Positions 25,319 to 30,743 of a stretch of DNA of 45,967 nucleotides are shown here, in pieces (the stretch's first letter is position 1; every line of letters begins with the position of its first letter). Made by a program: the position numbers and the translations under genes. Where the stretch lies: NCBI GenBank assembly GCA_018715125.1, contig DVMF01000063.1, positions 1 to 45,967 on the forward strand, written 5' to 3'. This DNA is from Candidatus Coprousia avicola. Lineage in GTDB: Bacteria; Actinomycetota; Coriobacteriia; Coriobacteriales; Coriobacteriaceae. The notes beneath the pieces are model-generated. The model was not told the origin of the DNA. It searched no databases and saw nothing but the letters and a program-made list of their open reading frames with translations.

Positions 25319-26746
25319 CTACGCGAGGTCCGCGCCGTTGGTGGCGATGACCTTCTTGTACCAATAGAAGCTCTTCTTCTTGGAGCGCGCGAGCGTGCCC
25401 TCGCCCGCATCGTCGCGGTCGACGTAGATGAAGCCGTAGCGCTTCGACATCTCACCCGTGCCCGCAGACACGAGGTCGATCGGCCCCCACGTGGTGTAGC
25501 CGAGCATCTCGACACCGTCCTCGGTGATGGCGTCGCGCATCGCCTCGATGTGCTGGCGCAGGTAGTCGATGCGGTAGTCGTCATCGATCGTGCCGTCGGG
25601 ATTGACCTCGTCCTTGGCGCCGAGACCGTTCTCCACCACAAACAGCGGCTTTTGATAGCGGTCCCAAAGGTCGTTCAGCGTGATGCGGAAACCGAGCGGA
25701 TCGATGGCCCAGCCCCACTGGCTCGCCTTGAGATAGGGGTTCTTGGCACCGGCGAAGGCGTTGCCCTCGGTCCTCTCGGCATCGCTCCCCTCGCCCGCCG
25801 AACAGCGCGTGGAGTAGTAGGAGAACGAGATGAAGTCGACGGTGTTCTCGGCCAGGATCTGCCGGTCCTCGTCGGTCATGCCGATGTCGATGCCGCGCCG
25901 CTCGAGCTCCTTCAGCGCGTAGCCGGGATACCGGCCGCGGCTCTGCACGTCGACGAAGAAGTAATTCTCCTGGTTGGCGAGCTGGGCGGCGCGCACGTCC
26001 TCGGGGCGGCAGCTGTAGGGGTAGTACGTACCGGCGGCGAGCATGCAGCCGATCTTCATCTCGGGGTCGATCTCGTGCGCGATCTTGGTAGCCCATGCGC
26101 TCGCCACGAGCTCGTTGTGCGCCGCGAGGTACTCGGCGGCCTCGTGGTCCTCACCCTCCTCGAAGACGATGCCCGCCCCCATGAACGGCAGGTGGAGGAT
26201 CATGTTGATCTCGTTGAAGGTGAGCCAGTATTTGACGAGGCCCTTGTAGCGGGTGAAGAGCACCGTGACGAGCTTCTTGTAGAAGTCGATGAGCTTACGG
26301 CTGCGCCAGCCACCGTACTCCTTGATGAGGTGGATCGGGCAGTCGAAGTGCGTGATGGTGACAAGCGGCTCGATGCCGTGCTTCTTGCACTCGCGGAAGA
26401 GGTCCTCGTAGAAGGCGAGGCCCTCCTCGTTGGGCTCGTCCTCGTCGCCCTGGGGGAAGATGCGCGTCCAGCCGATGGAGAGGCGGTAGGTCTTGAAGCC
26501 CATCTCGGCAAAGAGGGCGATATCCTCCTTGTAGCGGTGGTACATGTCGATGCCCACCTTGGCGGGATAGTAGTAGCCGTCCTCGAAGTCGAGCATCTTG
26601 CGTAGGCCCGCCGTCACCAGACGACGCTCGGGGCCGTGCGGGATGACGTCGACGTTGGCGAGCCCGCGCCCACCCTCGTCGTAGCCGCCCTCGCACTGGT
26701 TGGCAGCGGTCGCGCCGCCCCACAGGAAGCCTTCGGGAAATGCCAT
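25319..26746 (-). CDS. GH1 6-phospho-beta-glycosidase
   Basis: A 475-residue glycoside hydrolase 1 paralogous to the one at 15086. Acid/base Glu179 is in LTFNEIN, nucleophile Glu372 in VVENGLG, and the phosphate-binding motif [17 protein letters not shown] is near the C-terminus, so phosphorylated sugars are expected. The start at 26746 follows AGGAGG. It lies downstream of the sulfatase and orphan EIIC, but a hairpin (26845-26874) and an operator-like palindrome (26766-26791) in the 187-base gap suggest extra control. It may hydrolyse the disaccharide phosphate delivered by that EIIC after desulfation. Substrate choice between gluco and galacto forms is open. Confidence 0.92.
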
Positions 26747-26765
26747 GGAATACCTCCTAGAACAA

Positions 26766-26791
26766 CGTGTGCGACACCATTGCCGCACACG
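26766..26791. promoter_or_regulatory. operator-like palindrome before the second GH1 gene
   Basis: CGTGTGCG (26766-26773) and CGCACACG (26784-26791) form perfect 8-bp inverted arms around 10 bases, only 20 bases upstream of the start codon. The position suits a repressor site or a leader hairpin near the ribosome binding site. The binding protein is unknown. Confidence 0.4.
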
Positions 26792-26844
26792 CGTATTGTC
26801 TCATGAATCAGCGCACTCGCACGCGAGAAGCGCCGCAAGCGGAA

Positions 26845-26874
26845 CGCGGCGTCCGCCCGAGGGCGAACGCCGCG
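26845..26874 (-). terminator. hairpin after the first sulfatase gene
   Basis: A 14-bp stem with one mismatch (26845-26858 with 26861-26874), about 60 bases after the sulfatase stop. It is followed on the minus strand by TTCC, so termination would be weak or Rho-assisted. It may set a lower level for the downstream GH1. Confidence 0.45.
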
Positions 26875-26933
26875 CGCTGAGAAAGGGCGCGAGCTGCAAC
26901 CCCTTCTTTTTACCGGCGAGCCTACTGCGCCAG

Positions 26934-29747: not shown

Positions 29748-29822
29748 ATGGTCCTCTCTCCCTTTAGGGGCGGTGCAGCTTGGGGCCCACTGGCTGCGGT
29801 ACGCTTCCCATCTTAGAGAGAA

Positions 29823-29909
29823 ATGGATATATGTCCATTTTTATATGGACTGTTATCCATGAACGGACGATTATCCACTGTAAACGGTATGTTTTGGAGA
29901 TATGTTCAT
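29823..29909. promoter_or_regulatory. array of RpiR-type operators (TGGA-N6-TCCA)
   Basis: Sites: ATGGA-N6-TCCAT at 29823-29838 and again at 29845-29860, a weaker ACGGA-N6-TCCAC at 29863-29878, and TTGGA-N6-TTCAT at 29894-29909, overlapping the rpiR stop. The region is AT-rich and holds the probable promoter of the EIIC-sulfatase genes. The same motif occurs at 30726-30743 before rpiR. Confidence 0.6.
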
Positions 29910-30694
29910 TCTTTATTAAGGAGGCGCGACACCCGCAGCAGCACGAGCTCGATGAACATCATGGCGATGATCTGGTCCTCGTAGAAGTTGATGGACTCAT
30001 CCCGGCTGATCCATGGCAGATAGTAGGTATGCGTAGCGTGCTCGGCAAGCTTAAGCGTACGGTTCATCGTGATGAGGTGCACGTCGACGCCGCGCTGCCG
30101 CATCGCGTCCATCGCCTCGTCGTAGCGCGCAAAGCCACGTCCGGAAAGCGTGATGACCACGGCGACGTCGCCCTCACCCAATATGTCGGCATCATCGCTC
30201 ATCACAATGGGGTCGCTCGTCCACTTGTTGTAGACACCGAGGCGCGTCAGGCGGTGCGAGAGCTGCTGGGCGCTCTCTGCGGTACGGTTGACGCCCCAGA
30301 TATCGATACGGCGCGCGCCGACGATGGCGTGTGCGAAAGCATCGACCTCCTCCTCGGTCACCGCGCTCGCGATGCGCCGGACATAGGAGGCGTACACGTC
30401 TGCGAGCCTATTGATATCCGAGGCAAGATCGCTCTCGCTCTCACCTACTGTCAAAGCCCCCTCGTGCGCCAGCAGGGCACGATTCATCGAGAAGCGGAAC
30501 TCGGAGAAGCCGTTGTACCCGAGCTTCTGGCTCAAGCGGATGAGCGCGGAGTTGGACGTCCCCGTAATCCGGGCAATCCGCGTGATGCTTCCCTGCAGGA
30601 TAAGTGCGGGATCGTCCAGAAAAGCCTCGGCGGCACGGGCCTCGGTTTTGGTGAGCGACGGCAGGGCGCGGCGCATATCCTCGAGAAGGCCCAT
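29906..30694 (-). CDS. MurR/RpiR-family regulator
   Basis: A 262-residue regulator. The HTH_6 domain covers about residues 3-75 (SLTKTEARAAEAFLDDP, ITRIARITGTSNSALIRLSQ, KLGYNGFSEFRFSMN). The SIS domain at about 115-230 (RRIDIWGVNRTAESAQQL, VAVVITLSGRGFARYDEAM) binds a phosphosugar. Start at 30694 (MGLLEDMRR) is supported by AGGGGGAG; an upstream ATG at 30742 is rejected because it overlaps the operator. It stands between two sets of TGGA-N6-TCCA sites and before the EIIC-sulfatase operon on the same strand, so it is most likely their regulator and autoregulated. Confidence 0.9.
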   Translation of the reverse strand: MGLLEDMRRALPSLTKTEARAAEAFLDDPALILQGSITRIARITGTSNSALIRLSQKLGYNGFSEFRFSMNRALLAHEGALTVGESESDLASDINRLADVYASYVRRIASAVTEEEVDAFAHAIVGARRIDIWGVNRTAESAQQLSHRLTRLGVYNKWTSDPIVMSDDADILGEGDVAVVITLSGRGFARYDEAMDAMRQRGVDVHLITMNRTLKLAEHATHTYYLPWISRDESINFYEDQIIAMMFIELVLLRVSRLLNKE

Positions 30695-30725
30695 CGGCTC
30701 CCCCTTTCGTGTGTGCGAATGTCTA

Positions 30726-30743
30726 ATTGGAACTATATCCAAT
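30726..30743. promoter_or_regulatory. operator in front of the RpiR gene
   Basis: ATTGGA-ACTATA-TCCAAT is a perfect 6+6 palindrome, 32 bases upstream of the rpiR start and two bases after the preceding gene's stop. It has the same TGGA-N6-TCCA core as the array at 29823-29909, which argues for autoregulation. Confidence 0.55.

Follow-up and report, generated by a model that had tools for sequence, protein, structure and literature searches.

An rpiR-EIIC-sulfatase cassette in Candidatus Coprousia avicola, a candidate for PTS import and cytoplasmic desulfation

Introduction

The best-known sulfatases of gut bacteria are those of Bacteroides, which are periplasmic and act before uptake. In Streptococcus pneumoniae, the accessory island SPH1922-SPH1930 contains a Lac-family enzyme IIC (EIIC) of the phosphotransferase system (PTS) adjoining a sulfatase, together with a maturing enzyme and a TauE exporter (PMC3302838), and deletion of the island lowers fitness in mice (PMC3283741). 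Glycosaminoglycan clusters of streptococci and Proteus combine PTS import of a host-derived disaccharide with cytoplasmic processing, and the chondroitin operon of Proteus vulgaris carries a putative sulfatase as well as putative PTS genes (PMC9067506). Here we analyse contig DVMF01000063.1 (positions 1-45,967, hereafter the window) of Candidatus Coprousia avicola (assembly GCA_018715125.1, genome size 2.42 Mb), in which rpiR, a Lac/Cel-family EIIC gene and a sulfatase gene form an accessory cassette. From sequence comparison we propose, with moderate confidence, that this cassette is an RpiR-controlled unit for PTS import and cytoplasmic desulfation of a sulfated β-linked sugar. Our literature search found no paper on this locus in Collinsella.

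Results

Conservation of the EIIC-sulfatase pair

The genes for rpiR, EIIC and sulfatase, as well as a gene of glycoside hydrolase family 1 (GH1) that follows them, are all located on the minus strand (open reading frames, Pfam and NCBIfam; Table 1). Between the end of the EIIC stop codon (28440) and the sulfatase ATG (28433) there are six bases. This spacing, the phospho-GH1 identity, the orphan state of the EIIC and the RpiR gene had been proposed in an initial annotation made from the sequence alone, and all are borne out by coordinates, Pfam and NCBIfam. That annotation had also staked its proposal beforehand on a conserved EIIC-sulfatase adjacency in related genomes. Indeed, we find this adjacency in G053 (same genus-level group), in Collinsella stercoris DSM 13279, in G157 (a second coriobacterial family) and, in an unrelated phylum, in Halanaerobium saccharolyticum. 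Wherever sulfatase identity is at least 67% (G053 85%, C. stercoris 78-79%, G157 67%), EIIC and rpiR lie directly upstream, the rpiR orthologues being 67% (G053), 56% (C. stercoris) and 46% (G157) identical. The gene order is rpiR-EIIC-sulfatase in G053, a reduced form, and rpiR-EIIC-sulfatase-EIIA-EIIB in G157. C. stercoris shows the latter order with a gene for an anaerobic sulfatase-maturating enzyme (anSME) divergent from rpiR, so that its sulfatase lies inside a PTS operon.

Among the 65 genomes of the family set (EIIC orthologues counted at E<=1e-90), sulfatase orthologues occur in 4 and EIIC in 3, all three within the four sulfatase carriers. The chance of such an overlap is 4/43,680 (~1e-4) under independence; this confinement of the EIIC to sulfatase carriers argues that the adjacency is not due to chance. 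In H. saccharolyticum (L064), a sulfatase of the same clade is 51% identical, and the EIIC is 29% identical and no closer than paralogues. Mapped onto the sulfatase tree, the Lac-EIIC label has to change at least twice, also when just the well-supported branches are considered. Taken together, the distant Halanaerobium EIIC and the repeated label changes suggest independent pairing: judged from the tree, pairing of the sulfatase clade with a Lac-type EIIC probably arose more than once, and this is the strongest argument that the two proteins work together.

Two of these loci show further features. In G157 (L086, 4206-9715) a frameshift divides the EIIC between two frames, and EIIB abuts an insertion sequence (IS)-like open reading frame at its 3' end. 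Downstream of the C. stercoris cassette (L063, 10105-14775) come a LicT-type antiterminator, an EIIBCA of the β-glucoside-type PTS and a second sulfatase, a further case of a PTS paired with a sulfatase.

Table 1. Features of the cassette, its surroundings and the maturases in the window
Feature	Position	Strand	Evidence or remark
Accessory cassette rpiR-EIIC-sulfatase, ~3.9 kb	26841-30744	-	blastn against L107 and L109-L111; absent from the same site in G049 and in G048, G050 and G054
rpiR, RpiR/MurR-family regulator (HTH_6 + SIS)	29906-30694	-	Pfam, sequence
Lac/Cel-family PTS EIIC	28440-29747	-	TIGR00410, PF02378, alignment to 3QNQ
Type I (Cys-type, formylglycine) sulfatase without signal peptide	26934-28433	-	PF00884, active-site residues
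GH1 6-phospho-β-glucosidase, old neighbour outside the cassette	25319-26746	-	copies in relatives
Palindrome TGGATATAGTTCCA, exact TGGA-N6-TCCA, upstream of rpiR	30728-30741		site before rpiR also in G053 and C. stercoris
Array of sites upstream of EIIC	29824-29908		29824-29837 and 29846-29859 exact; 29864-29877 and 29895-29908 with one mismatch
Strong GC hairpin after the sulfatase, no T-run	26844-26875	-	93-nt stretch, z = -5.1; same place as the G053 terminator
anSME (radical SAM/SPASM)	43719-44879	+	70% identical to the anSME divergent from rpiR in C. stercoris
Second anSME (radical SAM/SPASM)	10742-11953	+	profile and structure matches

Properties of the cassette proteins

The EIIC matches PF02378 and reaches 282.6 bits with the lacE model TIGR00410 (cut-off 236), and in an alignment to the solved EIIC 3QNQ its His and Glu motifs are kept. 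With the same 282.6 bits it stays below the cut-off of the cellobiose equivalog TIGR00359 (434.45) and it also misses that of the lactose equivalog, so cellobiose is not assured as its substrate. For rpiR, the listed open reading frame spans 29906-30742 with a TTG start at 30742; the true start is likely the ATG at 30694, which has a good ribosome-binding site. All three genes are under purifying selection, with pN/pS values between the window and G053 of 0.14 (sulfatase), 0.17 (EIIC) and 0.35 (rpiR).

The sulfatase scores 138.9 bits with PF00884 (gathering score 25), and C54-x-P56-x-R58, D14/Q15, D304/H305 and K317 are invariant across 12 aligned homologues. It reaches none of the NCBIfam equivalog cut-offs for arylsulfatase (PRK13759), choline sulfatase or PehA. 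The first core strand (SNIVWFVADQ) is at the very N-terminus of the protein, and no N-terminal extension before this strand is present in homologues aligned over their full length. Both anSMEs of the window match the solved 4K36/4K37 at 277-296 bits; with TIGR03942 they score 337.6 and 328.0, slightly below the cut-off of 349.45. The nearest is found 13 kb from the cassette and is thus not part of the same cluster. The lack of a signal peptide and the presence of two maturases fit cytoplasmic desulfation; that the sulfate is taken from a PTS substrate inside the cell is a prediction. An AlphaFold model of the sulfatase (11 homologues) was set aside, as its mean pLDDT of 57.5, with less than 50 in the active-site region, makes it unfit for inferring fold or substrate.

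Borders of the cassette and the neighbouring GH1 gene

The borders of the cassette are seen in the sister genome G049, where the flanks are ~95% identical at the DNA level and 3.9 kb (26841-30744) are missing: in blastn, the matches of the two flanks of locus L107 end at window positions 30745 and 26840, and in L107 just 64 nt separate them. In G049, the open reading frame corresponding to window 30745-32079 (upstream of rpiR here) is followed by GH1 and then by the formyltetrahydrofolate synthetase (FTHFS) gene, and the same gene order without cassette is present in G050 and G054. G048 also has no cassette, and valyl-tRNA synthetase adjoins GH1 there; in G048-G050 and G054 alike, GH1 adjoins FTHFS. 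Copies of GH1 are 92-93% identical in G048, G049, G050, G053 and G054. G053 carries the cassette at the same site as the window, with a canonical terminator between sulfatase and GH1 (L062:9525-9554; 12 pairs, then GCTTTTTT), and the window hairpin at the corresponding place is a possible transcript end. Both cassette carriers of the genus (window and G053) thus share the site, and the data are compatible with gain or loss on each branch. The dS values between window and G053 are 0.92-1.46 for the cassette genes, 0.42 for GH1 and 0.77 for FTHFS; this contrast agrees with cassette and flanks having had different histories, although codon bias could contribute.

GH1 itself (PF00232; 886.6 bits with the 6-phospho-β-glucosidase model NF007158, cut-off 639) starts 187 bp downstream of the sulfatase on the same strand. 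The genome contains 12 GH1 genes above a threshold of E 1e-150, so linkage of a hydrolase to the cassette is not required. Judged from its copies in relatives, this GH1 is an old genus-wide resident and a separate unit from the cassette. Just 5' of it (26766-26792) we observed a near-perfect palindrome, CGTGTGCGgcaatggtgtCGCACACG, which is identical in G049 and absent from more distant copies, and which is possibly a GH1 operator.

EIIA and EIIB

No EIIA or EIIB open reading frame is found beside the EIIC, and the cassette has none of its own. This absence, pointed out in the initial annotation, holds for the locus but needs refinement, as C. stercoris and G157 have a fuller form that includes both subunits. 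Since they directly follow the sulfatase there, the cassettes of the window and G053 can be regarded as a reduced form, and EIIA/EIIB would now be supplied by sharing with other PTS systems. The genome contains four Lac-type EIIA genes and six PF02302 EIIB genes, all on contigs other than that of the window. Nearest to the cassette subunits of C. stercoris are the C17 and C32b pairs (EIIA 52%, EIIB 49-50% identical). A search for lone Lac/Cel subunits, as the initial annotation had suggested, does reveal an orphan EIIA-EIIB pair on C32, but with just 36-37% identity, against 49-52% for C17/C32b, we rejected it as the partner. This pair (G000:C32:15408-17600; L009, L094) consists of a LicR-like regulator, EIIA and EIIB without EIIC. 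Relatives (L095-L099, L101, L105) keep an EIIC beside LicR-IIA-IIB, which argues that the C32 pair was orphaned by loss of its own EIIC; this loss had made it an attractive candidate partner.

Operator-like sites

The spacing from the first to the last site of the array upstream of EIIC is 71 bp in the window, in G053 and in C. stercoris alike. In the genome we counted 17 exact TGGA-N6-TCCA sites (42 for the reversed control pattern), 3 of them at the cassette; no site with an exact TGGA half-site was found in G157. Binding of RpiR to these sites is a prediction. A wider RpiR regulon defined by the operator was considered and rejected: none of the 17 sites is near an EIIA/EIIB pair except for C32:72859, which is located 2.7 kb past the C32b genes and has a spacer unlike those of the AT-rich cassette sites, so that no distant operator target is supported.

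Other PTS-sulfatase neighbourhoods in the genome

The genome encodes five catabolic-type S1 sulfatases: one beside the EIIC described here, two in a mannose-PTS cluster, one on C48 and one on C58, the last adjoining an MFS_2 symporter. Not counted were C82 and C85, which are LtaS-like (711-763 aa, with the domain in the C-terminal half), and C31, a phosphoglycerate mutase by sequence. The initial annotation had suggested that intracellular desulfation after PTS import is a recurring strategy in this organism. The pairing does recur with different PTS families and sulfatase subfamilies (mannose PTS, Lac EIIC and C48), in favour of that suggestion as far as this genome goes, desulfation itself being predicted.

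The mannose-family cluster (window 35307-42621) comprises EIIA (42145), EIIB (41647), EIIC (40662) and EIID (39835) as well as two sulfatases of different subfamilies, at 38007-39506 and at 35307-36797, the latter passing the PRK13759 arylsulfatase cut-off. On C48 (L066, 5256-8266) a sulfatase is divergent from a glucose/β-glucoside-type EIIBC, a third PTS-sulfatase neighbourhood. A further PTS cluster of the window (14344-19098) contains RpiR (18157-19098), EIIBC (16527-17909), GH1 (15086-16546) and a cytidylate-kinase-like gene (14344-15114). Open reading frames perhaps like the latter follow GH1 homologues in L088 (6208), L091 (4568) and L093 (2401), so this GH1 and kinase-like pair may be conserved.

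Discussion

We propose the following scheme for the cassette. The EIIC would import a sulfated β-linked disaccharide or glycoside, which would be phosphorylated during uptake by EIIA/EIIB recruited from a different Lac-type system, the complete C17 and C32b systems being the best candidates. The cytoplasmic sulfatase, presumably activated by one of the two anSMEs of the window, would then remove the sulfate before or after cleavage by one of the many phospho-β-glucosidases of the cell. RpiR could sense the phosphosugar via its SIS domain and control the cassette through the TGGA-N6-TCCA sites.

Several observations weigh against this scheme. The cassette is rare, with both genes in just 3 of the 65 family genomes. 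It has no EIIA/EIIB of its own here, and service of its EIIC by a foreign EIIB is an assumption. Furthermore, most Coriobacteriia homologues of the sulfatase are not found beside a Lac EIIC: the sulfatases of G213 and Niallia are located beside a GPH symporter and that of G060 beside mannose-PTS remnants, and the g75 group is without Lac EIIC. Plasmid relatives also show no Lac EIIC (Niallia beside GPH symporters, Subdoligranulum among other sulfatases). In G309 and G341 a homologue lies beside a lone Lac-type EIIB, and some others have no transporter. These varied neighbours argue against a strict tie of the sulfatase to PTS import. Finally, the pneumococcal analogue showed no 4-methylumbelliferyl (4-MU)-sulfatase activity, nor any growth phenotype with the sugars tested (PMC3283741).

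The same neighbourhoods would be expected if transport and desulfation were separate functions, i.e. if the EIIC served an ordinary cellobiose-type sugar and the sulfatase acted on an aryl, glycoside or choline sulfate entering otherwise, with the operon shared by history. A search of PDB profiles, which includes choline sulfatases and phosphonate monoester hydrolases as distant relatives, points in this direction as well. We nevertheless consider such a separation unlikely in view of the six-base gap, of the PTS operons that enclose the sulfatase (C. stercoris, G157 and Halanaerobium), of two Lac-PTS pairings that seem independent of each other, and of the fact that every S1-type sulfatase of the genome, save the LtaS-like proteins, is located beside or near a sugar transporter. 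Alternatively, the cassette might be a decaying remnant that has lost EIIA/EIIB and whose EIIC no longer transports. The cassette lacks the subunits that C. stercoris and G157 have, its distribution is patchy, and the frameshifted EIIC and the EIIB end of G157 show that decay occurs among such loci. Yet all three genes are intact and evolve under purifying selection (pN/pS 0.14-0.35), the operators are retained, and the same reduced form in G053 has survived a speciation or spread between species, which makes a remnant quite improbable.

The initial annotation had treated EIIC, sulfatase and GH1 as one locus, with GH1 hydrolysing the imported phospho-disaccharide. The 6-phospho-β-glucosidase identity and the short distance on the same strand speak for this, and in Halanaerobium, too, a GH1 lies downstream of the PTS-sulfatase genes. 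Membership of GH1 did not hold up: it remains at the same site by FTHFS in genus members without cassette, a terminator separates it from the sulfatase in G053, EIIA-EIIB and not GH1 follow the sulfatase in C. stercoris, and with 12 GH1 genes the cell has other candidates. There is thus only a small chance that the three form a single locus, and we keep to the three-gene cassette. More speculatively, the sulfatase clade could represent a specific, unrecognised PTS uptake pathway that paired with Lac EIICs at least twice independently, lost EIIA/EIIB here and runs on the subunits of other PTS systems, the substrate of desulfation possibly being a 6-phosphorylated sulfated sugar; we put this forward tentatively. 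If our proposal is true, a Gram-positive route of PTS import and cytoplasmic desulfation would open sulfated glycan fragments to gut bacteria other than Bacteroides. As C. stercoris is cultured and holds a fuller copy, the idea is testable.

Compared with the known systems, the locus resembles the S. pneumoniae island in that a Lac-family EIIC lies directly beside a sulfatase in an accessory region absent from some genomes (PMC3283741, PMC3302838). The island has its own EIIA and EIIB, two EIICs, a ROK regulator and the TauE exporter, whereas the window cassette has RpiR, no EIIA/EIIB and a maturing enzyme outside the cluster. By published primers only, the pneumococcal sulfatase seemingly belongs to another subfamily (DQMRADAL and VPARAALL versus DQMRADAM and VPSRCSFL in the window). 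The streptococcal glycosaminoglycan cluster differs by an EIIA-EIID type PTS, an unsaturated glucuronyl hydrolase and a lyase (PMC9067506). H. saccharolyticum shares the sulfatase clade in a Lac-type PTS with GH1 downstream and an anSME nearby, but its order is EIIB-EIIC-sulfatase-EIIA-GH1-GH1-SulP-anSME, with a distant EIIC, full EIIA/EIIB and a LevR-type sigma-54 activator upstream. The SulP-type sulfate permease between its GH1 genes and the anSME (L064, 13580-15235) perhaps moves released sulfate. The closest system is that of C. stercoris (L063, NZ_CP085935.1), with rpiR, EIIC and sulfatase 56, 70 and 78% identical and the same operator array. It differs from the window by EIIA-EIIB after the sulfatase, the divergent anSME, no GH1 following and another chromosomal site, and thus has in its cluster both components of the pneumococcal island, the maturing enzyme and EIIA/EIIB, that the window cassette lacks. 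In summary, the arrangement of a sulfatase with a PTS is already known; new are the absence of EIIA/EIIB, the borders, the RpiR operator array and the coriobacterial cassette as such.

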